From contig JALOTE010000004.1 of assembly GCA_025458045.1 (NCBI GenBank), positions 1 through 47,524 on the forward strand: a stretch of 47,524 bases of DNA, written 5' to 3'. The position numbers were made by a program, and so were the translations under genes. Shown in pieces: positions 13,303 through 46,319 of the stretch (position 1 is the first letter of the stretch; each line of letters starts with the position of its first letter). Under the pieces are notes generated by a model that had not been told where the DNA came from, did not search any database, and saw nothing but the letters and a program-made list of their open reading frames with translations. The stretch comes from Rhizobiaceae bacterium (GTDB lineage Bacteria; Pseudomonadota; Alphaproteobacteria; Rhizobiales; Rhizobiaceae).

Positions 13303-14166
13303 CTATCCCCGGGTCGTCGTCGTGGCTGTCACGGGCTTGGCGGAAAAATCGTGCCGTCCGACAGGCTTTTGCGCTCGAACATCGGTCCGGTCCGTGCCGC
13401 GCCATTGGTTGGCGCGCCGCTCGATAGGCTGGATCGCGACATATTCGATCAGCAGCATGATCGCGACAAAGCTGATCGCGTAGGCGAGCACGCCTGTCGT
13501 GTCGAACATCTGGAAATCGAGATGGATCTTGTAGCCAACACCGTTCGAACGTCCCAGAAACTCGACGACCAGAACGACCTTCCAGATCATCGCCAGCCCG
13601 TTGCGTGCCGCGGCTGCGATGAAGGGCGCAAGCTGCGGCAGCATCACATGGGCGAAACGCTGGCTGCGGGTCAGCCGGAAAATGCGCGCCATGTCATTCA
13701 ACGCCGGGTCGAAGGTCCGCGCGCCTTCGCGCACCGTGACGATCACCATGGCGGCCTTGTTGAGGGCAACGGCTGTCACGGCGGCGATCTCGTTCAGCCC
13801 GATCCACAGATAGCAGAGCACGATCAGCACAAGCGCAGGCAGGTTCAGGAATATCACCACCCACGCATCCGCAAACGCATCGAGACGGCGGTGCAGGCCG
13901 AGTGCGAGCCCGATCACTCCACCGGCCAGCATGGCAATGGCAAAGGCGGCGGCAACGCGCTGGAGTGTCATCGCCACATGTTCAACCATGCGTCCGGCGG
14001 TCAGTTCCTCGAAGATACGAAGGCCCACCGTCATTGGTCCCGGCAGGACCAGAGGGTCGGCCTTCAAGAAGGCCATCAAGGACCAGAACAGGACAAACCC
14101 CGTGACGGATACGCCAAGCGCCAAAGGGTCACGGACGATCATGCCTGCCCCGCCTTTGGCAGCCAT
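13303..14166 (-). CDS. ABC transporter permease, NitT/TauT (SsuC-like) type, orphan
   Basis: This is a predicted inner-membrane permease of the nitrate/taurine/sulfonate-type uptake family. About six membrane segments are visible (for example LALGVSVTGFVLFWSLMAFL, IAMLAGGVIGLALGL, ILATLI-like segments and a final VLAYAISFVAIMLLIEYVAI). The EAA-type cytoplasmic loop before the LPQLAPFI segment contacts the ATPase in relatives. The start is uncertain: ATG 14166 is used, ATG 14142 is close to the first membrane segment, and GTG 14265 would add a charged leader. No cognate ATPase or binding protein is adjacent. It is divergent from the NosR-like gene and may share its regulatory palindrome. The substrate cannot be read from the sequence. 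Confidence 0.8.
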   Translation of the reverse strand: MAAKGGAGMIVRDPLALGVSVTGFVLFWSLMAFLKADPLVLPGPMTVGLRIFEELTAGRMVEHVAMTLQRVAAAFAIAMLAGGVIGLALGLHRRLDAFADAWVVIFLNLPALVLIVLCYLWIGLNEIAAVTAVALNKAAMVIVTVREGARTFDPALNDMARIFRLTRSQRFAHVMLPQLAPFIAAAARNGLAMIWKVVLVVEFLGRSNGVGYKIHLDFQMFDTTGVLAYAISFVAIMLLIEYVAIQPIERRANQWRGTDRTDVRAQKPVGRHDFSAKPVTATTTTRG

Positions 14167-14292
14167 GCGACCTGAACGGGTCTCGGCGTGCGATGTCACT
14201 TCGGGGTCTCCCGCCCGCTGATGCAGGCTCTTCCGGGCCCGTGCGGGCTGAACCCGCGTTGCCACCCTACAGTGTCATGGGCCGCGCGCATG

Positions 14293-14308
14293 TCCAACCA
14301 TGGTTGAA
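14293..14308. promoter_or_regulatory. 16-bp palindrome upstream of NosR-like gene, candidate operator (copy 1)
   Basis: TCCAACCATGGTTGAA is symmetric in 7 of 8 base pairs. It lies 34 bases before the NosR-like ATG and in the divergent gap to the permease gene. It matches the perfect palindrome at 19172-19187 in 13 of 16 positions, including the full ACCATGGT core and the outer T and GAA bases. Confidence 0.55.
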
Positions 14309-14342
14309 TATCGCGCCTCAGCATCTCCGATACGATCCGGTC

Positions 14343-16478
14343 ATGCTTGGGAGGGCTTTCCGGTTTGCGTGTTTCTGGCTTGCGGCGGTGTGGTGCGCCG
14401 CGGCTTCGGCGGAGCCTTTGGCGCGCGCCGAGATCGAACCCTTCATCATGCCGCCTTACTCGCTTGGCGAGCCGGTCAACGAGAAAGGCGTTTGGAGCCT
14501 GCTCAATTCAGGTGGCGCGGAGGCAGGCTATGTATTCGAGACCGCGCCAATGGCGCCGCTGCCCGGCTTTTCCGGCGCGCCCATCAATCTTCTGGTTATC
14601 CTTGACCGTGAAGGCAAGTTCATCGACGTCCGTTTGATCAATCACAATGAGCCGATCTTCGTGTCTGGCCTCGGTGAAGCGCCGTTCCTGAAGTTTCTCG
14701 AACAATATCGCGGCCATTCGATCAATACGCCGATGGTTGTCGGCACCCCCTATGGCGAAGGCGCGAAAGGGTCCAACCTGGTCTATCTGGATGGCGTGAC
14801 GAAGGCGACGGCCAGCGTGCGCATCGCGCATGAGTCGGTGCTCGCTGCCGCTTTGCAAGTGGCGCGCGAGAAGATGCAAGGCGTGTCCGCCGCCCCGCCG
14901 GCTTTCCCAAACCTCGCCCATGACGAGGCGATGGATTGGAACACGCTCGCGGCACAAGGCATTGTCGCCCGCCAGACATTGACCAACCGGGCGGTCGACG
15001 CGGCGTTCAAGGGCACGAAATGGGCCGATGATGACCCTGAGGCCGCCGATGAACCGGACGGTCTCTATCTGGACCTCCACGTGCTGGATGTGGGGCCGCC
15101 GTCCATCGCGCGGGCGGTGTTTGATGCCGAGACGCTGAAAGACATTGAGCGCTTTCGCGCGCTTTCACCGCATGATGAACTGCTGCTGGTGATCGATGCC
15201 GGCCGCCATGGCCTCGTGTCCGAAAATTTTGTGCGCAATACCGCACCCGATCTGCTGGATGCCGAGCAGGACGGCTTGCCGGTGGCGCTGCGCGATGCGG
15301 ACATGCTGTTCACGCTGAATGACGGCGTGCCCGAAGGCACGGCGATGATCCTGCGGGCAGACCGGCGGTTGGGGTTCGATCCATCGCGGCCGTGGACGTT
15401 GAAAGTGAAGGCGGCGCGCGCCCATGGCATGTTCCAGCCAGAAATCGGCAGCGTTGATTTTACGGTGCACATCAAGACGCCTGAGCGCTTCTTCTCACGG
15501 CCCGAAATCACGGAGCCGACACCGGCCTGGTTGGATGCGGTCAACAACCGGCGCGGCGACCTGATCGTGCTGACGCTCGGCCTGCTCGCGCTCACCCTTG
15601 CGTTGCTGGCGCGGCAATCGGCGCTGGCCGGCGCACCATTGTTCACGCCTCTGCGCTTGGGCATTCTTGCCGCAGTGACAGGCTTTGTCGGCTGGTGGGG
15701 GCAAGGCCAGCTCTCCATCGTCACGGTACTCGGCGTCATTCGCACGGCATGGGAAGGAGGGTCCTTCGGGTTCCTTGCCTATGATCCGTTCTCGCTTGTC
15801 GTTTGGGTCTTTGCGATTGGTGGATTCGTGCTGTTCGGGCGGGCGCTGTTTTGCGGCTGGCTTTGTCCGTTCGGAGCGATGCAGGAATTCGCTCATCATC
15901 TCGGCCGGTTGCTGCGGCTGCCGAAGCTCGAGCCAAACGCGGTTTGGGATCATCGCCTGAAAGGCGTGAAATATCTTCTGCTTGCCGGTCTTGTTGCCAC
16001 TGTGTTCATTGCCCCGGACCGGGTGGACGCTGTGGCTGAAATCGAACCGTTCAAGACGGCTGTCACCACGCATTTCCAACGCGAATGGTGGTTTGTCGCC
16101 TATGCGGTGTTCTGGCTGGTGCTCGGCATGGTCACGTTCAAAGGCTTCTGCCGCTATGTCTGCCCGCTTGGCGCTGTGATGGCGATTGGCGGCATGGTGC
16201 GTGCGCGCAGCTTCATTCCCCGGCGCGCGGAATGCGGTTCGCCCTGTCAGTTGTGCAAGGTCAAGTGCAATTACGGCGCAATCAAGCAAAATGGCGCTGT
16301 CACCTATTCGGAGTGCTTTGGCTGCCTCGACTGCGTGACGATCCACGAAGACCCGAAGACGTGCGTGCCGGAAGTGCTCAAGGGCAAGCGTGCGGCACGC
16401 GCGCAAGCCAATGGCCTGCGGCCGGTCGTCTCGTGGCCAGGTGGCCTTCAACCCGTGCCAAGGGAGCCGGCGGAATGA
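14343..16478 (+). CDS. NosR/NirI-type FMN-binding, polyferredoxin membrane protein
   Basis: This protein is predicted to carry electrons from the quinol pool across the membrane to or from a periplasmic partner. The 711-residue product has a signal peptide (about 1-23) and a periplasmic FMN-binding domain with the flavinylation motif D150-x2-T153-x-A-T156-x-S158 (FMN expected on Thr156). About five to six membrane segments follow (402-610), with two CxxxCP motifs (Cys504/508, Cys603/607). Its C-terminal ferredoxin part has Cys631/635/638/642 and Cys658/661/664/674. This is the full NosR architecture, yet no nosZ or other nos gene is present. The apbE flavin transferase overlaps it by ATGA. 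A palindrome lies just upstream. Its context suggests a partner in periplasmic alcohol oxidation or metal handling rather than N2O reduction; that is inference. Confidence 0.85.
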   Translation: MLGRAFRFACFWLAAVWCAAASAEPLARAEIEPFIMPPYSLGEPVNEKGVWSLLNSGGAEAGYVFETAPMAPLPGFSGAPINLLVILDREGKFIDVRLINHNEPIFVSGLGEAPFLKFLEQYRGHSINTPMVVGTPYGEGAKGSNLVYLDGVTKATASVRIAHESVLAAALQVAREKMQGVSAAPPAFPNLAHDEAMDWNTLAAQGIVARQTLTNRAVDAAFKGTKWADDDPEAADEPDGLYLDLHVLDVGPPSIARAVFDAETLKDIERFRALSPHDELLLVIDAGRHGLVSENFVRNTAPDLLDAEQDGLPVALRDADMLFTLNDGVPEGTAMILRADRRLGFDPSRPWTLKVKAARAHGMFQPEIGSVDFTVHIKTPERFFSRPEITEPTPAWLDAVNNRRGDLIVLTLGLLALTLALLARQSALAGAPLFTPLRLGILAAVTGFVGWWGQGQLSIVTVLGVIRTAWEGGSFGFLAYDPFSLVVWVFAIGGFVLFGRALFCGWLCPFGAMQEFAHHLGRLLRLPKLEPNAVWDHRLKGVKYLLLAGLVATVFIAPDRVDAVAEIEPFKTAVTTHFQREWWFVAYAVFWLVLGMVTFKGFCRYVCPLGAVMAIGGMVRARSFIPRRAECGSPCQLCKVKCNYGAIKQNGAVTYSECFGCLDCVTIHEDPKTCVPEVLKGKRAARAQANGLRPVVSWPGGLQPVPREPAE

Positions 16479-17374
16479 ACGTGCTTTCATTGTCCCGCCG
16501 CCGCTTCATGCAGGTTTCGGCGTGCGCCGCCGGCGCGGCGGTCCTGCCCGGCGCGGCACGGGCGTCAAGCTGGCATGGCCGCGCCTTTGGGGCGGATGTC
16601 TCGCTGACATTCGAAGGCAGTGAGCCGGACAGGGCGATTGACGGCGTGCTCGCCATCGTTGACGCTTATGAAAAGGCCTTTTCGCTGCATGATCCGGAAA
16701 GCGAAATCTCGCGCATCAACCGCGATCTGGTGCTGGCAAAACCGTCGGCGCTGTTTGGCCGCATGATGCGCGATTGCACCCGCGCTTGGCTTCACACCGG
16801 GCGCTACTTCGACCCGACAGTGCAGGCCCTGTGGCAGATTGCGCGCGATGGCGGCGTTGCGTCACTGCAGCAGCCGCGCGTCGGCTGGCTTGCCGTTCAG
16901 TGGACCGGGGCGGGGATTGAACTCATGCCCGGCGCCAGCATCACCCTCAATGGCGTCGCCCAAGGTGCCGCCGCCGACGAGGTGAAAACGCTGCTCAAGG
17001 GCCAAGGATTTGACCGTTGCCTGATCGACATGGGTGAACTGGCCACCATTGGTGACGGTTGGCGCGTGGGCGTCGAGACGCCCGAATTCGGCCAGCTCGC
17101 ACGCCTGACCCTGAACGGCACCGCCGTTTCCACCTCAAGCCCGAACGCGACGCTCGTCAACGGGGTGCCCCACATCATGTCGCCATTTGGCGGCGCGCCG
17201 CAATGGTCCACAGTCACGGTGGAAGCCAAAACCGCGTTCTGGGCCGATGTGTTCTCGACTGCGCTGTGCCTTGTCCGGTCGGCTGATATGCGGGAGATCA
17301 TCGGTCGAGGCGGAAAAAACCTCGTGCGCGTCCTTGCCGTTGATGCCAGAGGGGACCTTCAGACACTGAAGTGA
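16475..17374 (+). CDS. apbE: FAD:protein FMN transferase (ApbE/NosX type), Tat-exported
   Basis: ApbE enzymes take FMN from FAD and attach it covalently to Thr or Ser in FMN-binding domains. The 299-residue product begins with a twin-arginine signal (S7-RRRFM, then a hydrophobic run ending near residue 31). Typical motifs are present: FSLHDPESEISRIN, FDPTVQALW, ITLNGVAQGAAADEV and the late GTAVSTSSPNATLVNG region. It starts at ATG 16475, overlapping the NosR-like stop, so the pair is translationally coupled and the neighbour's Thr156 is the likely substrate. NosX is the name used in nos clusters, but no nos genes are here. An 18-base gap separates it from the convergent binding-protein gene. 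Confidence 0.9.
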   Translation: MNVLSLSRRRFMQVSACAAGAAVLPGAARASSWHGRAFGADVSLTFEGSEPDRAIDGVLAIVDAYEKAFSLHDPESEISRINRDLVLAKPSALFGRMMRDCTRAWLHTGRYFDPTVQALWQIARDGGVASLQQPRVGWLAVQWTGAGIELMPGASITLNGVAQGAAADEVKTLLKGQGFDRCLIDMGELATIGDGWRVGVETPEFGQLARLTLNGTAVSTSSPNATLVNGVPHIMSPFGGAPQWSTVTVEAKTAFWADVFSTALCLVRSADMREIIGRGGKNLVRVLAVDARGDLQTLK

Positions 17375-17392
17375 ATGGATGGCGGTCGGCGT

Positions 17393-18337
17393 TCAGCGCT
17401 CAGGCGGCAGGAAGGTCAAGCCCATCTGTTCATGGATGGCGGCGATCCGCCCGTCGGCCAGTGCCGCGGCGATGGCGTCATCGACCGCATAGGCAAGGTC
17501 GCGGTGGGAGTGATGGATGGCGACCCCGAGCGTCCAGCGGCCCACTGCGAAGCCTGGCATCAGCGGCTTGTGGACGGCAAGCCCGTCCGGCAGTTGCCAC
17601 TCCAGTTGGCCGCGCGGGCCGATGGCCGCCATGGTTTCACCTGCGGCAAGTGCCGCCATCGCATCCGCCGTTGATTTGAAGCGCCTCGCATTGCCGACAG
17701 CGGCCCCCACCTGGCCGGTGATGTAGAAATCGGAAATGGAATCATTTTCTACCGCGACCGTATCAAACCGGAAAAACGCCGGAACGGGCGCGTCGGGATG
17801 GCGGCCGTCTTCGTCGGGTTCTTGCACGGCATCGGGGTAGGCGGCTTTGGAATAGGCGATCGCCACGGTTTCGCCGGCATATTGCCCGGTGAAGACAACC
17901 TGTTCCACGCGGCAGGCATAGGTGCTGTCATAGGGCACACGCAGCATGACATTGGACACGTAGCCGTCCACAGCCGCGCCCTTCCAGACATAGTTCAGGA
18001 GATCGGAATCAAGCGTTTCGCCCGCCTGCACGAAGCGGAAGCGCGGTTCGACGCCGAGTGCTGAAGCGATGATACGGCCAATTTCAATGTCTACGCCATT
18101 GGGCTTGCCGTCGGCCTCGAAGGAATAGGGCGCGAAGTTCTCGTAGACCGCAAACTCGATCCAGCCGCGCTCGACGATTTCATCGAGCGTCTTGCCGACG
18201 AATTCGCGCGCCGTGTTTTGCGGGCGCTGGCCGGGCACCACATCGGCGCAACGCGGTGATTGCGCGATGGCCGCGCCGGATGACGCGGCCATCGCCACAA
18301 GGTGGGAGCACAGGAGCGCGAACGCCCGACGATTCAT
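17393..18337 (-). CDS. Quinoprotein dehydrogenase-associated periplasmic binding protein (XoxJ-like / SBP family 3)
   Basis: The 314-residue exported protein has a signal peptide (cleavage near AIAQS, residue ~26). Its fold is that of amino acid-type binding proteins (VYENFAPYSFEADGKPNGVDIEIGRIIASALG; IGPRGQLEWQL). It resembles the quinoprotein dehydrogenase-associated SBP family, whose members (MxaJ, XoxJ) are thought to help mature or activate periplasmic PQQ dehydrogenases rather than serve transport. Four cysteines are visible (Cys10 in the signal, Cys32, and one in STYACRVEQ). The start ATG overlaps the cytochrome stop by 4 bases, giving a two-gene operon. The dehydrogenase it would serve is not in the window. 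Confidence 0.82.
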   Translation of the reverse strand: MNRRAFALLCSHLVAMAASSGAAIAQSPRCADVVPGQRPQNTAREFVGKTLDEIVERGWIEFAVYENFAPYSFEADGKPNGVDIEIGRIIASALGVEPRFRFVQAGETLDSDLLNYVWKGAAVDGYVSNVMLRVPYDSTYACRVEQVVFTGQYAGETVAIAYSKAAYPDAVQEPDEDGRHPDAPVPAFFRFDTVAVENDSISDFYITGQVGAAVGNARRFKSTADAMAALAAGETMAAIGPRGQLEWQLPDGLAVHKPLMPGFAVGRWTLGVAIHHSHRDLAYAVDDAIAAALADGRIAAIHEQMGLTFLPPER

Positions 18338-19011
18338 TCGGCTGCCGATAGACCGATGGTGAGAATTTCGGCCGCAGCTTTCTGATTGTCGGGGGCGGCG
18401 TCAAGTGACAGGGCGGCGCGGCGGGCAATTGAATCCGCCACTTCGGCGCCGGACGCGGTTTTCACCTTCGAGGCAATGTCGAACAGTTCGGCCTTGACGG
18501 CGGCCGCATCCGCCGAACCGGCGTGAAGCGCATCTCGGATGGCGGTCAGCCGCACCATGTGCTCGTCGAGCGCACCGTCATCGGGCCGCGTCTCGATATA
18601 GGAGCGGATGGCCCAGGCCGCCTTCTGGCCAAGCACCTCGCCGAAGGCCGGCATCTTGGTGGTGCCATCCTGCGTGTAGCCATGGATGAAGCGTTCGGCA
18701 AACCACTCGTCGCCCGCTTCGGCGGCCTCAAGGAAGCGCAGATCCGGGGCCAGGCCGCCGGATACGACGCCCAAGCCGTGGCAGCGCGCGCAGTTCTGGT
18801 TGTAACCGGAATCGCCGATGTCAACGGCGGTCCAGAAGGTCTTTTCGTCTGCTGCGGCGGCCCGGTACGGGTTTTCGATCAGCCATTCCTCGCCCACTTC
18901 GGGCAAGGCGTCCGTGTTGACGGCCTGCGGCGCAACATCGCCATGGGCCAAAGCAAAGCTTGCGGCGAGCGCAAGAGACAGTGCGGCAAGGCCGCGAAGA
19001 GCGTGTTTCAT
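18334..19011 (-). CDS. pedF: Periplasmic cytochrome c of the PedF (c550) type
   Basis: This is a predicted electron acceptor for a PQQ-dependent alcohol dehydrogenase. The 225-residue protein has a signal peptide ending ALAHG (about residue 22) and the family block VAPQAVNTDALPEVGEEWL-ENPYR. One c-type haem site is C74-A-R-C77-H78, with a probable axial Met120 in KMPAF. The region beyond 135 is a helical extension of unclear use. ATG 19011 is chosen because GGAGG lies just upstream on the minus strand. It is followed by an overlapping binding-protein gene and is divergent from the ABC operon across a 222-base gap with two palindromes. Confidence 0.87.
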   Translation of the reverse strand: MKHALRGLAALSLALAASFALAHGDVAPQAVNTDALPEVGEEWLIENPYRAAAADEKTFWTAVDIGDSGYNQNCARCHGLGVVSGGLAPDLRFLEAAEAGDEWFAERFIHGYTQDGTTKMPAFGEVLGQKAAWAIRSYIETRPDDGALDEHMVRLTAIRDALHAGSADAAAVKAELFDIASKVKTASGAEVADSIARRAALSLDAAPDNQKAAAEILTIGLSAAE

Positions 19012-19064
19012 CGTGGTCCTCCAACCCAAGTGTGTCTGATGCCTAACAGTGCGCCGCGCGTCGC

Positions 19065-19080
19065 TCCATTGGACAATGGA
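19065..19080. promoter_or_regulatory. Inverted repeat upstream of the PedF-type cytochrome gene
   Basis: TCCATTG and CAATGGA arms (7 bp, perfect) are separated by GA, 54-69 bases upstream of the cytochrome ATG. It differs from the 19172 palindrome, so the divergent gap may carry two operators. No regulator is assigned. Confidence 0.35.
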
Positions 19081-19171
19081 CGCAATGTGCGGTGCGTGGC
19101 GGGTGGCTGTCAGCCAGCATCAACACCTCGGCAAAGATGGACGGCGGTCTTCAGGGTTTGCGCGCCCGCGT

Positions 19172-19187
19172 TTCGACCATGGTCGAA
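19172..19187. promoter_or_regulatory. Perfect 16-bp palindrome upstream of the ABC operon, candidate operator (copy 2)
   Basis: TTCGACCATGGTCGAA is fully self-complementary. It lies 46 bases before the ATG at 19234, in the divergent gap with the cytochrome gene. The palindrome at 14293-14308 is the same motif with A/T for G/C at the variable pair. Confidence 0.6.
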
Positions 19188-19233
19188 TGGACTGAATGGT
19201 CGGCCTTTTCCAACGTGCGGGCGGGAGGATGTT

Positions 19234-20421
19234 ATGAGATATCGTTCGGCTTGCACGGCCGTGCTCGCGGGCATGGCAGCGTGCCTTTCTGTGCCGCCAG
19301 TCGTTTCGGCAACGGAATTGGCTGTGCCGGTCCTTTATCTTCATCAGCAGGTGGAGCAGCCGCCTGTGCTGTCCAACCTCGACCCGGTGCCCGAAGATCT
19401 GGGCATGGCTGGCGCTGAAACCGCGCTCAAGGACAACAAGACGACGGGCGGCTTTCTCGGGCACCAATACAGCCTCGACATTGTGAGTGTCGAACCGGGC
19501 GGTGATTTTGTTGCCGCCGCGCGGGAGGCCCTTGCGCAGACGCGGCTCATTCTGGTGGATGCGCCGGCGGGCCAATTGCTGGCCGTCGCCGATCTGCCGG
19601 AGGCCGGGGATGCGTTGCTGTTCAATGTGTCGGCTGAAGATGCGGCGCTGCGTTCTGACCAATGCCGCGCCAATGTCCTGCATGCCGCAACCGAGATGGC
19701 GCAACGCTCCGACGCGCTGATGCAGGTGCTGCAAGCCAAACAGTGGCGCAGACTCGTGATGGTCGTGGGGCCCAAGGAGCCGGACAAGGCGTTCGCCGCC
19801 GCGTTGCGCGCCAGTGCCGCCAAGTTCGGGCTCGAAGTTCTTGCCGAGAAGGAATGGACCTTCGACACCGATTTGCGGGAATCCACGATGCAGGAAATCC
19901 CGCGCTTCACGCAGGATTTTCCCGATCATGATGTTTTGCTGATTGCCGACGAGACCGATGATTTCGGCCGGTATGTCGAACACAACACGTGGCTGCCGCG
20001 ACCCGTCGCCGGGTCGGACGGCATGGTCGCCACCGCATGGAGCCATGTGATCGAGGCGTGGGGGGCGGTTCAATTGCAGAACCGCTTCGAAGACACGCAT
20101 GACAGGCCGATGCGCGGGCGCGACTACGCGGCCTGGGTGGCCATGCGCGCGATCGGCGAGGCTGTCACACGGACGGGTTCAGCCGATCCGGCCGTCCTGC
20201 GCGCGCATTTGCTGAGGCCGGATTACCAGCAGGACGGGTTCAAGGGCAGGGGCCTGTCGTTTCGCGCCTTCAACGGGCAGTTGCGCCAGCCGATAGCGGT
20301 GGTGAATGCGCGCGCGCTTGTCACACTCGCGCCGGTCGAGGGTTTCCTGCACCCCGTGAACGAAATGGACACGCTTGGGCTCGACGCGCCGGAGAGCCAG
20401 TGCACAGCGTTTGGAGGATAG
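19234..20421 (+). CDS. ABC transporter substrate-binding protein, PQQ-dependent alcohol dehydrogenase-associated (LutA-like)
   Basis: The 395-residue exported protein has a signal peptide (about 1-26, ending VVSATE). Its body is a periplasmic binding protein type 1 fold (LILVDAPAGQLLAVADLPEAGDALLFNVSA..., [14 protein letters not shown]). It fits the binding-protein family found with PQQ alcohol dehydrogenase systems. The relative in Methylorubrum belongs to the lut cluster for lanthanide uptake. ATG 19234 has GGGAGG five bases upstream; the open frame continues upstream across the cytochrome gene's opposite strand without homology. It is the first gene of the operon 19234-23467. The ligand (lanthanide complex, alcohol or other) is not decidable here. 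Confidence 0.83.
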   Translation: MRYRSACTAVLAGMAACLSVPPVVSATELAVPVLYLHQQVEQPPVLSNLDPVPEDLGMAGAETALKDNKTTGGFLGHQYSLDIVSVEPGGDFVAAAREALAQTRLILVDAPAGQLLAVADLPEAGDALLFNVSAEDAALRSDQCRANVLHAATEMAQRSDALMQVLQAKQWRRLVMVVGPKEPDKAFAAALRASAAKFGLEVLAEKEWTFDTDLRESTMQEIPRFTQDFPDHDVLLIADETDDFGRYVEHNTWLPRPVAGSDGMVATAWSHVIEAWGAVQLQNRFEDTHDRPMRGRDYAAWVAMRAIGEAVTRTGSADPAVLRAHLLRPDYQQDGFKGRGLSFRAFNGQLRQPIAVVNARALVTLAPVEGFLHPVNEMDTLGLDAPESQCTAFGG

Positions 20422-20422
20422 G

Positions 20423-21394
20423 ATGAAACAATGGCTTTCGGCCCTTCTGGCCTGTGTCGCGCTGCCTGCGCAGGCGGGCGAAATCTGGGTGACCAACGAG
20501 AAAGATGACACGATCAGTGTCATCGATGTCGACACGCTGGAGGTCGTGCGCACAATCGAGACTGGCGAGCGGCCGCGCGGCATCACGTTTTCCAAGGATT
20601 TCTCCAAGGTCTACATCTGCGCCTCCGACAGCGACACGGTTCAGGTGATGGACCCTGAAACGGGTGCCATCCTGCATGACCTGCCGTCAGGCGAGGACCC
20701 GGAGCAGTTTGTGCTCCACCCTGATGACACGCATCTCTACATCGCCAATGAGGATGACGCGATCACCACGGTCGTCGACACGCAGTCGCGCACTGTTGTC
20801 GCGCAGATCGATGTCGGCATCGAGCCGGAGGGCATGGCGGTGTCGCCGGATGGCAAGATCGCCATCACCACCTCCGAGACGACCAACATGGCGCATTGGA
20901 TCGACACCTCGACCCAGAAGCTGTTTGCCAACACGCTTGTCGACAGCCGCCCGCGGCACGCCGAATTCACCACCGGCACCAATGAGCTGTGGGTGTCCTC
21001 CGAGATTGGCGGCACGGTCACTGTGTTCGATGTCGCGACACAAAAGGAAAAGGCCAAAATCGGTTTCGAGATCACCGGCGTCAACCGGGACCTGATCCAG
21101 CCCGTCGGGTTTGAGTTCACACCGGATGAGAAGATCGCCTTCGTCGCCCTCGGGCCGTCCAACCATGTCGCGGTCGTCAATGCAGAGACGTTCAAGGTTG
21201 AAAAATACATCCTTGTCGGTCGCAGGGTCTGGCACATGGCATTCTCGCCGGACTTCACCAAGCTGTTCACAACCAATGGTGTGTCGGGCGACGTGACTGT
21301 CATCGATGTCGCTTCTCAAGAGGCTCTGAAATCAATCAAGGTCGGCCGCTTCCCGTGGGGTGCGGCGATGCGGCCGACGAAATCGAAAACCTGA
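20423..21394 (+). CDS. Periplasmic YVTN-type beta-propeller protein, PQQ-associated
   Basis: The 323-residue product has a signal peptide (about 1-19, ending AQAGE). Six to seven repeats of about 42 residues follow, with the motif IWVTNEKDDTISVIDxDTLEVV, VYICASDSDTVQVMD, LYIANEDDAITTVVD and so on, typical of YVTN propellers. The closest family is the beta-propeller found in PQQ-dependent catabolism ABC clusters. It starts one base after the preceding stop, with GGAGGA upstream. Many acidic residues lie on the repeats. It may bind or chaperone a ligand for the ABC transporter; that is inference. Confidence 0.85.
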   Translation: MKQWLSALLACVALPAQAGEIWVTNEKDDTISVIDVDTLEVVRTIETGERPRGITFSKDFSKVYICASDSDTVQVMDPETGAILHDLPSGEDPEQFVLHPDDTHLYIANEDDAITTVVDTQSRTVVAQIDVGIEPEGMAVSPDGKIAITTSETTNMAHWIDTSTQKLFANTLVDSRPRHAEFTTGTNELWVSSEIGGTVTVFDVATQKEKAKIGFEITGVNRDLIQPVGFEFTPDEKIAFVALGPSNHVAVVNAETFKVEKYILVGRRVWHMAFSPDFTKLFTTNGVSGDVTVIDVASQEALKSIKVGRFPWGAAMRPTKSKT

Positions 21395-21420
21395 AACCGG
21401 ACGGCAAGGAGGGGTCCCCT

Positions 21421-21897
21421 ATGACACGCATAACAAGGACGTCACTGACACGCAGTATCCTGGCGACGGCACTGGCCTTGAGCGTGGCCATGCCCGTGGC
21501 ATTCGCCTCTGAGGAAGACGGGGAGGACAGCGTGCCACTCGCCGGCCTGATGGCGGCGGGCAACAAGGAAAACCTGCCGCCGATCACGTTGTCGGCCGGC
21601 CAGCCGCTGGCGGCCGCGCCCTTGAAACTCAAATCAGGCCGGTATTATGAAATCGAAATCGAGGCGGACGGGTCGCAGGAACTGGGCCTTGCCGGAGCCG
21701 GTTTCTTCCGCGCCATCTGGATCGACGAGATCGTGATCGAGGGGTTGGAGATCCGGCCGCTTGGCATTGACTCGGTGGAATTCGACGAGGCAGGCACGAT
21801 GGAAATCGGTTTCATCGCCATCAAGCCCGGCACCTATGAATTGAAGGTGCCAGGCTCGACCGGCGACAGCCAGCGGCTGGAGATCACCATCGAGTGA
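21421..21897 (+). CDS. Exported hypothetical protein of the PQQ/lut-type ABC operon
   Basis: The 158-residue product has a signal peptide (about 1-29, ending AFASE) followed by an acidic EEDGEDS patch. A beta-rich domain (PLKLKSGRYYEIEIEADGSQELGLAG..., TMEIGFIAIKPGTYELKVPG) resembles a cupredoxin-like sandwich, but without the Cys/His copper set. No EF-hand loop is seen. It overlaps the ATPase start by GTGA, so it is an integral operon member. Its function is not known; a small periplasmic ligand-binding role would suit the context. Confidence 0.75.
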   Translation: MTRITRTSLTRSILATALALSVAMPVAFASEEDGEDSVPLAGLMAAGNKENLPPITLSAGQPLAAAPLKLKSGRYYEIEIEADGSQELGLAGAGFFRAIWIDEIVIEGLEIRPLGIDSVEFDEAGTMEIGFIAIKPGTYELKVPGSTGDSQRLEITIE

Positions 21898-22664
21898 CGA
21901 TCAAAACGGCGCATCAGGGCGGGGCGGGGATTGCCGGTATCGGGCTCAGCGTTGAACAGCTCAGCCACGCATATGGGGCTCGGCAAGCGCTGGACGGGGT
22001 GACGTTTTCCGTTGCGCGCGGCACGTTCTGCGCCCTGCTTGGACCGAACGGGGCCGGGAAGTCCACGCTTTTTGCCCTGTTGACGCGGCTATATGCCAGC
22101 CGGGCCGGAGTGATCCGCGTGGCAGGCCACGACATGGCCGCCACTCCGCGCGCTGCACTGGCCCGGATCGGCGTCGTGTTCCAGCAGCCGACGCTCGACC
22201 TTGACCTGAGCGTCTGGCGCAACCTCCTCTACTTCGCCGCGCTGCACGGGATTGCGGGCAAGGACGCCGCCCGGCGCAGCGAGGCCGCGCTTCAACGCCT
22301 TGGCATGGCGCAACGCGCCAAGGAACGGGTGCGGGACCTGAATGGCGGGCACCGCCGCCGCCTGGAAATCGCGCGCGCGCTGATCCACGCGCCGGATGTG
22401 CTTTTGCTCGACGAACCGACCGTCGGACTTGATGCGGCGGCGCGGGCGTCCATCACGGACCACGTCCATGATCTGGCGGCCTCCGGCCTCAGCGTGCTGT
22501 GGGCCACGCACCTGACGGACGAGGTGCGCGCCAAAGACCAGTTGGTGGTGCTGCATCAGGGGCGCATCCTTGCCGATGGCGTCATGGATGAGGTGACGGC
22601 TGGACGGCCCTTGCGCGACGTGTTCCTGACGATGACGGCCAACCCGCCGACGGTCGCCCCATGA
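21894..22664 (+). CDS. ABC transporter ATP-binding protein, PQQ-associated (LutE-like)
   Basis: The 256-residue nucleotide-binding subunit has Walker A G50-PNGAGKST and the Q-loop VVFQQPT near 94-100. The signature is altered to LNGGH (149-153) in place of LSGGQ, Walker B is LLLDEPTVGLD (Asp173-Glu174), and the switch His is 206. The LNGGH variant is usual in the PQQ-associated ATPase family. GTG 21894 overlaps the previous stop, and its stop overlaps the permease ATG. It drives the permease encoded next. Confidence 0.9.
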   Translation: MTIKTAHQGGAGIAGIGLSVEQLSHAYGARQALDGVTFSVARGTFCALLGPNGAGKSTLFALLTRLYASRAGVIRVAGHDMAATPRAALARIGVVFQQPTLDLDLSVWRNLLYFAALHGIAGKDAARRSEAALQRLGMAQRAKERVRDLNGGHRRRLEIARALIHAPDVLLLDEPTVGLDAAARASITDHVHDLAASGLSVLWATHLTDEVRAKDQLVVLHQGRILADGVMDEVTAGRPLRDVFLTMTANPPTVAP

Positions 22665-44507: not shown

Positions 44508-46319
44508 ATGGCCTATGACCTCGACCTGTTTGTTGTCGGCGGAGGGTCCGGCGGCGTGCGCGCCGCCCGCGTTTCAGCGCAGATGGGCAAGCGTGTGACG
44601 ATTGCCGAGGAGTACCGGCTTGGCGGCACCTGCGTCATTCGAGGCTGTGTTCCAAAAAAGCTGCTCGTCTACGCATCGCAGTTTTCCGAGCATTTCGAGG
44701 ACGCCGCTGGGTATGGCTGGACCGTCGGCGAGACAAGGTTTGACTGGCCGAAGCTGATCGCAGCCAAGGACAAAGAGATTTCGCGGTTGGAAGGGCTCTA
44801 CCGCAAGGGGCTGGAAACTTCCGGCGCACGTGTCATCGAAAGCCGTGCCACGCTCATCGACGCGCATCATGTCCGCATCGAGGCCACCGGCGAGGTTCTG
44901 AGCGCGGAGGCGATCATCATTGCCACCGGCGGGCGCGCCAATCCACATGCCGCGCTGCCCGGCCACGACTTGTGCATTACCTCCAATGAGGCGTTCGACC
45001 TGCCGGAACTGCCGCGCGCCATCATCATCGAGGGCGGCGGTTACATCGCCGTCGAGTTCGCCAATGTTTTCCATGGCCTTGGTGTGGAGACGACGCTTGT
45101 TTACCGGGGCCGTGAAATCCTGTCGCGGTTTGACGCCGATCTGAGGCGCGGTCTGCATGAGGCGATGGCGGCCAAGGGCATCCGCATCCTGTGTGAAACC
45201 ATGCTGGAAGGGGTGCGGCGCGGCGATGACGGCCGCCTGCATGCGATCACCTCGAAGGGCGAGGCGCTCGACGCCGATCAGGTGATGCTTGCGGTCGGCC
45301 GTTTGCCGAACACGGCCGGGCTTGGGCTGGAGGCCGCCGGCGTGACGCTTGACGCCCAAGGCGCGATTATCGTGGATGCGTACTCACGCACCACGCAGCC
45401 GAACATCTACGCACTCGGCGATGTGACGAACCGCGTGCAACTGACGCCTGTCGCCATCCATGAAGCGATGTGTTTCGTCGAGACGCACTGGAAGGGCAAT
45501 CCGACCGCGCCTGACCACGATTGCATCGCCACGGCCGTGTTCTCGCAGCCGGAACTCGGAACGGTCGGCTTGACGGAGGAAATCGCGGCCAAGTCACATG
45601 ATCTGGACGTGTTTGTGGCGCGCTTCCGGCCGATGAAGAACATTCTTGCCGGGCGCGATGGTTTCCGGGATGCCTTCGCCGGGAGGAAACAACTCCAGTC
45701 CGGCCGCATCTCCTTCGGCATCATCCCGACCATCGCCCCCTACCTGCTGCCGCAATGGCTGGGGCCCTTCCGCAGTCGCTTTCCCGCCGTCACCATCGCC
45801 ATTTCCGAATCCCGCACCGAGGAACTCATCCATCTCGTCGTGGAAGGCGAGGTGGAATTCGCCGTCCTCAGCGATGTGCCGGAGCAGGACCGGAAGAAAT
45901 TGTCATTGCAGGTCAAGGAGCTGTTCCGCGAGCCCTTGCTGCTCGCCGCGCCTTCGAATCATCCCTTGGCGGTTCGAAAACAGCCGCCCGCACCCGGAGA
46001 TCTGCATGCCGACGAATTGATCCACCTCAAGGGCGGCCATTGCCTTGCCGAACGCACCTTGCGCCTCTGCCGCATCCGCGAACCGCAGCCCGGACTCCAA
46101 TGCGATCAACTCGATACCGCCCTTTCGATGGTCGCCTCCGGTCTCGGCGTGACGGTGGTGCCCAAGCTGGCCACCCGCACCCGGGTCTTCGAGGGCATCA
46201 CGCTGCGCCCCTTCGCCGGAGCGGGACTTTACCGGGTGATCAGCCTTCTGAAACGCAAGGGGATCGCAGAAACAGCCGCCGCGAGGGAACTCCTCCTCCA
46301 CCTTTCGCCCGAAGCGTGA
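44508..46319 (+). CDS. gor: Chimeric reading frame: truncated glutathione reductase joined to an OxyR-like LysR effector domain
   Basis: Residues 1 to about 383 are glutathione reductase: FAD site VVGGGSGGVRAAR, redox pair Cys42/Cys47 in GGTCVIRGCVPKK, NADPH site IIEGGGYIAVEFANVF, and FRPMKNILAGRD near the end. The next ~75 residues of a normal enzyme, the dimer interface with the HPT-x-x-E catalytic His-Glu, are missing. Instead, residues ~384-603 are the inducer-binding domain of an OxyR-type LysR regulator (GIIPTIAPYLLPQWL, GEVEFAVLSDVPEQ, HLKGGHCLAE with Cys, SMVASGLGVTVVPKLA), lacking the helix-turn-helix. The join is in frame. Neither half should work: the reductase lacks its dimer domain and the regulator its DNA-binding part. 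An assembly join or recombination is more likely than a designed fusion. Confidence 0.85.
   Translation: MAYDLDLFVVGGGSGGVRAARVSAQMGKRVTIAEEYRLGGTCVIRGCVPKKLLVYASQFSEHFEDAAGYGWTVGETRFDWPKLIAAKDKEISRLEGLYRKGLETSGARVIESRATLIDAHHVRIEATGEVLSAEAIIIATGGRANPHAALPGHDLCITSNEAFDLPELPRAIIIEGGGYIAVEFANVFHGLGVETTLVYRGREILSRFDADLRRGLHEAMAAKGIRILCETMLEGVRRGDDGRLHAITSKGEALDADQVMLAVGRLPNTAGLGLEAAGVTLDAQGAIIVDAYSRTTQPNIYALGDVTNRVQLTPVAIHEAMCFVETHWKGNPTAPDHDCIATAVFSQPELGTVGLTEEIAAKSHDLDVFVARFRPMKNILAGRDGFRDAFAGRKQLQSGRISFGIIPTIAPYLLPQWLGPFRSRFPAVTIAISESRTEELIHLVVEGEVEFAVLSDVPEQDRKKLSLQVKELFREPLLLAAPSNHPLAVRKQPPAPGDLHADELIHLKGGHCLAERTLRLCRIREPQPGLQCDQLDTALSMVASGLGVTVVPKLATRTRVFEGITLRPFAGAGLYRVISLLKRKGIAETAAARELLLHLSPEA
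45655..45665. other. Junction between Hyphomicrobiales-like and foreign sequence
   Basis: Homology to glutathione reductase stops in the AGRDG codons (45649-45663) where the family reads AGRDE-R-T, and LysR effector sequence follows at once. From here to 47524 the genes, codon choice and rising A+T content differ from everything upstream. Confidence 0.6.

Follow-up and report, generated by a model that had tools for sequence, protein, structure and literature searches.

A directional 17-mer before the pyrroloquinoline quinone-associated operons of a Rhizobiaceae bacterium, closely similar to the ACTU motif and probably a response regulator site

The island and its boxes

The DNA considered here, hereafter the window, is a stretch of 47,524 nucleotides (nt) from a Rhizobiaceae bacterium (contig JALOTE010000004.1), one contig of a 3.02-Mb draft genome which is spread over 179 contigs and is 93.8% complete. 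Within it lies an island of genes associated with pyrroloquinoline quinone (PQQ), and with them three copies of a short inverted repeat which are predicted to be activator boxes. Box 1 (TCCAACCATGGTTGAAT, 14293–14309, forward strand) stands before an operon of NosR-like and ApbE genes, and also between that operon and the divergent gene of an ATP-binding cassette (ABC) permease; box 2 (TTCGACCATGGTCGAAT, 19172–19188, forward strand) stands before a PQQ-associated ABC operon; and box 3 (TGCGTCCATTGTCCAAT, 19068–19084, reverse strand) faces pedF, this third copy being absent from an earlier, sequence-only reading of the same DNA. That reading had described the first two as 16-bp palindromes, and its description is accurate: 19172–19187 (TTCGACCATGGTCGAA) is a perfect palindrome, symmetric at 8/8 positions, 14293–14308 (TCCAACCATGGTTGAA) is a 7/8-symmetric variant, and the gaps from palindrome to start codon are 46 nt (19187 to the ATG at 19234) and 34 nt (14308 to the ATG at 14343), respectively. 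The pair is notable because its members have the common core ACCATGGT and both precede operons.

The left operon encodes a NosR/NapH-like membrane 4Fe-4S protein (14343–16478) and an ApbE family FMN transferase (16412–17374), both on the forward strand. The permease gene divergent from box 1 (13303–14217, reverse strand) is SsuC/TauC-like. Also on the reverse strand are the genes of a family 3 solute-binding protein (17393–18337), in what we take to be a XoxJ/MoxJ-like position, and of cytochrome c-550 PedF (TIGR04494; 18334–19014, scanned as 18334–19029 with the start chosen at 19014). To the right, on the forward strand, follow the members of the right operon, a PQQ-associated ABC substrate-binding protein (SBP; TIGR03863, PedA1-like; 19234–20421), a PQQ-associated beta-propeller (TIGR03866, PedA2-like; 20420–21394, scanned as 20375–21394, its start being uncertain), a small island-conserved protein with no family match at E 0.001 (21418–21897, scanned as 21355–21897), an ABC ATPase (TIGR03864, PedB-like; 21894–22664) and the ABC permease PedC (TIGR03861; 22661–23467). 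The Pseudomonas counterpart, PedA1A2BC, is called a lanthanide transporter in a passage of a recent review (PMC12997753). Among the closest named matches of the SBP are Tabrizicola, Fuscibacter, Cypionkella and Pseudotabrizicola, and on this basis the organism is taken as a member of the Rhodobacterales.

The SsuABC/TauABC-like transporter to which the permease at 13303–14217 belongs is split in this assembly, with the permease beside box 1 and the SsuA/TauA-like SBP and its ATPase on another contig (L097, 13943–15563), where they adjoin the PQQ dehydrogenase gene. In Gemmobacter, Shinella and Pseudosulfitobacter the trio lies within one island.

The conserved unit

The conserved element is a directional 17-mer, approximately TGCGACCWTGGTCNAAT, with a strict AC-N4-GT core and a one-sided AAT; in other words, it is not a strict 16-bp palindrome. 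Eight related loci (L074–L081) were compared upstream of the NosR-like gene and across the intergenic region between pedF and the SBP gene, and in both regions the gene-facing 17-mers stand out. Among 41 distinct site sequences three bases never vary (C6, G11 and A16), A5 and T12 are paired in 39 and T17 is present in 40, the central pair being self-complementary in 14. Across five genomes identity is 0.67–0.75 within the 17-mer versus 0.24–0.36 in the flanking blocks, figures which, like the site comparison itself, are partly circular since the training sites in the relatives were picked by eye from the expected regions; the tests on left-out groups, dehydrogenase promoters and plasmid islands given below are cleaner. 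The covariation argument of the sequence-only reading, which took the exchange of one G-C for one A-T pair between the two palindromes as the signature of an operator, does not survive in this larger set, where pair 4/13 is G-C in 24 sites and unpaired in 16, with A-T confined to the site of the window itself.

Nor is the motif, which had gone unrecognised in that reading, an unknown one. It matches the ACTU motif of the LuxR-family response regulator CrbR (also ErdR), which in the part of the study by Sepulveda and Lupas used here (PMC5715377) is needed for CrbR activation and lies at −52 to −36 of acs, immediately before the sigma-70 promoter. A matrix derived from ACTU, for which 11 of the 23 published table rows were chosen by the analyst, some of them non-significant in the paper itself, scores the three window sites at 23.4, 10.6 and 9.4, in keeping with the 17-bp inverted-repeat consensus; the fractions of random 17-mers reaching those scores are 0 of 400,000, 4e-5 and 6.5e-5, respectively.

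The spacing of the boxes raises the question of the CRP/FNR family, whose dimers would also act here from a class II position. The pattern TGCGA-N6-TCGCA is like CRP sites in spacing, and in CRP/FNR sites the outer half-sites are the conserved part and the centre is free. The 16-bp spacing, a centre near −43 and the fact that some sites read TGCGA-N6-TCGNA are all compatible with such proteins. However, the strict bases are those of the inner AC-N4-GT, and among the outer pairs, complementarity is seen in only 8 (2/15) and 18 (3/14) of the 41 distinct sites; moreover, it is ACTU that the sequence matches, and the gene after the dehydrogenase in the annotated islands is that of a response regulator. 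A CRP/FNR assignment is accordingly very improbable.

Occurrence in the window and in the draft genome

One perfect palindrome on its own is not rare, as the window holds three of 16 bp, together with 41 that are 7/8-symmetric. Similarly, the 16-mer TTCNACCATGGTNGAA with up to three mismatches is not in clear excess within the window (3 matches against 1.38 expected, with 21 of 100 shuffles reaching 3). These counts are what can be said for the boxes as chance palindromes. It is more unusual for two operons each to be preceded by a near-palindrome with one and the same central 8-mer, and the window contains one other same-core pair (GGCGCGCC). With a matrix trained on other genomes only, the three window boxes score 25.5, 16.2 and 15.2, against 11.9 for the best unrelated 17-mer across the 47.5 kb.

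In the whole draft genome, TTCNACCATGGTNGAA occurs with at most one mismatch only at the two window palindromes, and with at most two at 25 places. The pattern CRACCWTNGTYNAAT, allowing one mismatch, is found at 13 places, 4 of them inside the window; the other 9 overlap open reading frames (ORFs) of at least 100 amino acids, some of which are perhaps not genes, and no PQQ gene was seen downstream of any of these 9, one of which (L094) lies, as judged by eye, about 60 nt from the likely start of a gene that it precedes. Among relatives, the 16-mer with at most one mismatch has matches in 27 of 101 genomes, the true consensus being different from that 16-mer.

The expectation of the sequence-only reading that further sites in this genome would precede xoxF/exaA and pqq genes holds in part: a degenerate site does lie before the PQQ dehydrogenase gene, and no pqqB in the assembly passes the family cut-off (best score 26.1 bits against 245), though a PQQ dehydrogenase is encoded. 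Either a contig is missing or the organism depends on external PQQ. Among the other promoters of this genome that were inspected, those of CrbR, ExaC and cytochrome c have no site of their own.

Conservation among relatives

In view of the choice of training sites by eye, the relatives were rescored with matrices lacking their own group, taking for each gene the highest-scoring 17-mer on the gene strand within 200 nt. On this basis p is 0.005 or lower in 22 of the 24 NosR-like, pedF and SBP promoters of the eight relatives, the two weaker sites being those before the Tabrizicola NosR-like genes (p 0.015 and 0.041). The NosR-like site of Fuscibacter, TTGGACGAACGTCGCAT, reaches p 0.0002; the SBP match of the same genus is its pedF site read in reverse. 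The sister taxa among all the loci compared (two Shinella, two Ruegeria, two Tabrizicola, and L080 with L081) are not independent of one another. The motif is kept before both operons in all eight relatives, with flanks that are not conserved.

The PQQ dehydrogenase promoters lie outside the training set. A site is present in all six relatives that have the gene in the locus (p 0.001 or lower in each), ending 98–105 nt before the ATG, these six cases including two near-identical pairs of sister loci and hence amounting to about four independent ones. The SsuA-type SBP gene of L078 has a strong site at 51 nt.

A second set consists of ten plasmid islands from Rhizobiaceae, Roseobacteraceae and Gemmobacter, picked among the top 16 of 190 records so as to cover a range of taxa. 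With a fixed matrix, 43 of their 45 gene-strand promoters score at least 12.4, a cut-off chosen after these scores had been seen: NosR-like 9/9, pedF 10/10, SBP 9/10, dehydrogenase 10/10 and SsuA-type SBP 5/6. Of the 43, five repeat a dyad already counted, read in reverse (SsuA-type SBP in L203, L204, L205 and L211; pedF in L208). Control windows of the same plasmid loci reach the cut-off in 14 of 2384 cases, some of which are probably real sites, such as those at pseudoazurin genes. This excess of promoters over control windows already speaks against a chance origin, and the conservation of the 17-mer, with its prediction of promoters outside the training set, leaves to chance a negligible probability.

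Both Shinella islands have a strong box before the gene annotated as pseudoazurin (L203, 24598; L211, 24505), which is likely to be a further regulon member. Within the subset of loci searched for pqq genes, sites lie 59 nt before the annotated pqqA of Leisingera and 157 nt before pqqB of Fuscibacter, where pqqA was not located. The box precedes ped-cluster, PQQ dehydrogenase and pqq genes, as a regulon of the AgmR/PedR1 type would require. As regards the promoters of the AgmR-type regulators themselves, in six relatives (Tabrizicola not included), the near-identical L143 and L146 have an opposite-strand site scoring 14.5 and the four others score 9.3 or less.

Promoter layout

Before the NosR-like gene of the window lies a predicted −10 hexamer, TACGAT (14331–14336, forward strand), with its first base 12 nt before the ATG and no Shine–Dalgarno sequence to be seen. 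Taking this hexamer as the −10 places the box at about −51 to −35, a spacing which would fit a class II activator. A TA-led hexamer starts 20–23 nt after the 17-mer in 15 of 17 NosR-like loci, with the form TAnnnT in 11, and is found at the corresponding place in all 9 pedF promoters compared, that of the window being a weak possible −10, TAGGCA (19040–19045, reverse strand).

The layout also bears on whether the boxes are instead repressor operators. A palindrome near a promoter is typical of repressors too, and in one study, in the part of it drawn upon here (PMC9927353), most of the tested ErdR targets rose in an erdR mutant. The boxes, however, on the predicted −10 are fixed just upstream of the −35 region and not over the −10 or the start, and ACTU is reported as needed for activation (PMC5715377), such that repression is an unlikely role for them.

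In 10 of the 17 NosR-like loci an ATG follows 11–13 nt after the start of the −10, without a Shine–Dalgarno sequence: the window (14331–14343), L074, L075, L077, L078, L080, L081, L202, L207 and L210. Such short distances hint at leaderless mRNA, and the NosR-like messages, that of the window included, are possibly of this kind. In L207 and L210 the annotated NosR-like start is a later in-frame codon, and the four Rhizobiaceae NosR-like loci that were tested have a leader.

The regulator

AgmR/PedR1 is known genetically as an activator of PQQ-dependent alcohol oxidation. The boxes are probably sites of a LuxR/NarL-family response regulator of the AgmR/PedR1/CrbR group, activating a regulon of PQQ-dependent alcohol oxidation and the PedABC transporter. 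A dimer of this regulator would bind the AC-N4-GT core, some 43 bp before the point where transcription begins. Its targets in the window would be three promoters: that of the NosR-like/ApbE operon, that of pedF and the neighbouring solute-binding protein, and that of the operon of the SBP, propeller and ABC genes. In other words, a two-component activator would switch on together the genes of alcohol oxidation and those of probable rare-earth-metal uptake.

The earlier proposal, that one dimeric regulator has a shared operator here, is supported by the conservation of the boxes, by the unconserved flanks and by the prediction of further promoters. Conservation, a shared place in the promoters, the ACTU match and, in relatives, co-occurrence with an operon of an AgmR-type response regulator, a FIST protein and a kinase are what the computation finds. 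The family of the regulator, binding as a dimer, activation rather than repression, and the signal are inferred.

The LuxR-type regulator of the AgmR type, followed by the FIST protein and a hybrid kinase, is present in all eight relative genomes, the regulators being 63–99% identical among themselves. The operon lies inside the island in the two Tabrizicola loci and 9 of the 10 plasmid islands, directly after the PQQ dehydrogenase gene in all eleven, and is lacking from the 29-kb Gemmobacter stretch. The set matches the Pseudomonas neighbourhood of AgmR/PedR1, a NosP-like protein and PedS1, as that is described in the review text compared (PMC12997753).

Several observations weigh against this interpretation. 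Neither an AgmR-type regulator nor a FIST protein was found in the 93.8% complete assembly of the window's genome. The site of its PQQ dehydrogenase, TAAGACCATAAGCCAAT, in the same place as in the relatives (107 nt), is degenerate (score 5.6, p 0.07), as is one 53 nt before its SsuA-type SBP gene (score 5.6), and its acs upstream region has no box. All nine pedF hexamers lack a final T, and the window's SBP promoter has no TAnnnT at the expected spot and no convincing −10. The Pseudosulfitobacter SBP promoter has no site (score 3.8). With regard to ACTU, the island matrix applied to the 11 published rows gives 1.4 to 21.9, with the actP and rplJ rows as low as 1.8 and 1.4; and PFLU0110, an experimentally shown target, has an instance with q 0.633 in that paper's own scan as tabulated (PMC5715377). 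Finally, of 151 family genomes 38 pass the cut-off, and in 30 of their loci (L044–L073) together with Oceanobacter (L082) none of 37 pedF or SBP promoters has a site that reaches p 0.01; nor does the PQQ dehydrogenase promoter of Oceanobacter have one (score 3.4, p 0.17).

Since it is missing in these 31 distant loci, the box is a feature of the window island's own branch and not of every PQQ-ABC cluster. Loss of the motif from close relatives that keep the operons, the outcome named beforehand as damaging to the shared operator, is not seen; among more distant ones such loss is seen. The boxless loci include five with the pedF/SBP layout, at 49–54% SBP identity. By eye, these five (L044, L051, L057, L068 and L073) show other near-palindromes, for example GTACTTAAGNACAA in L068 and L073, which are perhaps a diverged form of the box.

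Because only a CrbR-like regulator and a CrbS-like kinase were found in the assembly, either the AgmR operon is missing from it or CrbR serves the boxes. The second alternative, in which the acetate-type response regulator CrbR (ErdR), partnered with CrbS, acts here in place of an AgmR-type regulator, is possible, if on present evidence somewhat unlikely. The CrbR-like regulator is the only one of its class found in the genome, is 48% identical to the Oceanobacter CrbR-like protein, which follows acs, versus 36–38% to the AgmR types of the relatives, and has in common with the AgmR types the recognition-helix sequence TVKAHV. Its gene is convergent to that of a 1175-residue hybrid kinase (PAS, HisKA, HATPase, REC; L141), whose long hydrophobic N-terminus would resemble the SLC5-type part of CrbS, no such Pfam match having been returned, and which is 36% identical over residues 1–1170 to the kinase convergent to the Oceanobacter CrbR-like gene. 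On the other hand, the acs promoter of this genome is without the motif; 129 of the 151 family genomes have a regulator about as close to ErdR (CrbR and others pooled; E of the best match at most 2.2e-53 in every one), among them genomes in which no island SBP was found; and in the relatives the island accompanies an AgmR-type regulator. A regulator swap is doubtful; in it this lineage would have lost the AgmR-FIST-kinase operon but kept the PQQ/PedABC operators, with the paralogous CrbR/CrbS taking over. Were it true, alcohol oxidation and metal uptake would be coupled directly to acetate sensing.

Other features of the window

The ORF at 44508–46319 encodes a glutathione reductase, cut in its dimerisation domain and joined to a LysR/OxyR-type effector domain without the DNA-binding part. 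Either a genuine deletion has fused the two or the join arose in assembly.

Comparison with known systems

The box is ordinary in kind and its reading well supported, namely as a probable response regulator box which defines a PQQ alcohol-oxidation regulon in Alphaproteobacteria and is closely similar to ACTU. Its use lies in the gene list that a promoter-positioned 17-mer readily gives, comprising the PedABC transporter, PedF, NosR-like/ApbE, the PQQ dehydrogenase, the SsuA-type transporter and probably pqq, which makes the regulon directly testable.

As described in the parts of that study used here (PMC5715377), ACTU, the motif of CrbS/CrbR (MxtR/ErdR), is like the window boxes a 17-bp imperfect inverted repeat with a one-sided AAT in several instances, and CrbR is a LuxR-family response regulator, the kind proposed above for the boxes. 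Its instances include TACTACCATCGTCGAAT and, before PFLU0110, CGCTACCATGGTCGAAT, the latter being nearly identical to box 2, with the last 13 consecutive bases shared. The position of ACTU at −52 to −36 compares with about −51 to −35 for the NosR-like box on its predicted −10, the window's other two promoters having a weak −10 or none. ACTU is reported before acs, actP and other genes in Gammaproteobacteria, whereas the island box stands before PQQ and ped genes in Alphaproteobacteria; in Oceanobacter (L156) the acs upstream region does contain a site. Being linked in sequence to CrbR, the regulator of acetate genes, the box suggests possible joint use of sites by two paralogous regulators, or competition between them.

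Sites of the NarL type have a 7-2-7 arrangement. The window boxes are similar in having two 7-bp arms and a 2-bp centre, with a different heptamer sequence, and NarL is the nearest solved structure by sequence to the CrbR-like regulator.

In the open-licence literature searched, no binding box for AgmR or for an island such as this was recognised, PMC6115532 being without motif terms. In Pseudomonas, according to the review text consulted (PMC12997753), AgmR activates ped and pqq genes, and the island differs from the Pseudomonas ped arrangement in that the alphaproteobacterial response regulator, FIST protein and kinase follow the dehydrogenase (11 loci) and were not found in the window's genome. 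The likeness is otherwise close: a NosP-like protein and a PedS1/NahK-like kinase are neighbours in the Pseudomonas ped cluster as in the islands, and the AgmR/PedR1/ErbR regulon, as that text gives it, resembles that proposed for the island in bringing the PedA1A2BC transporter, PedF, the PQQ dehydrogenases and pqq under one control.

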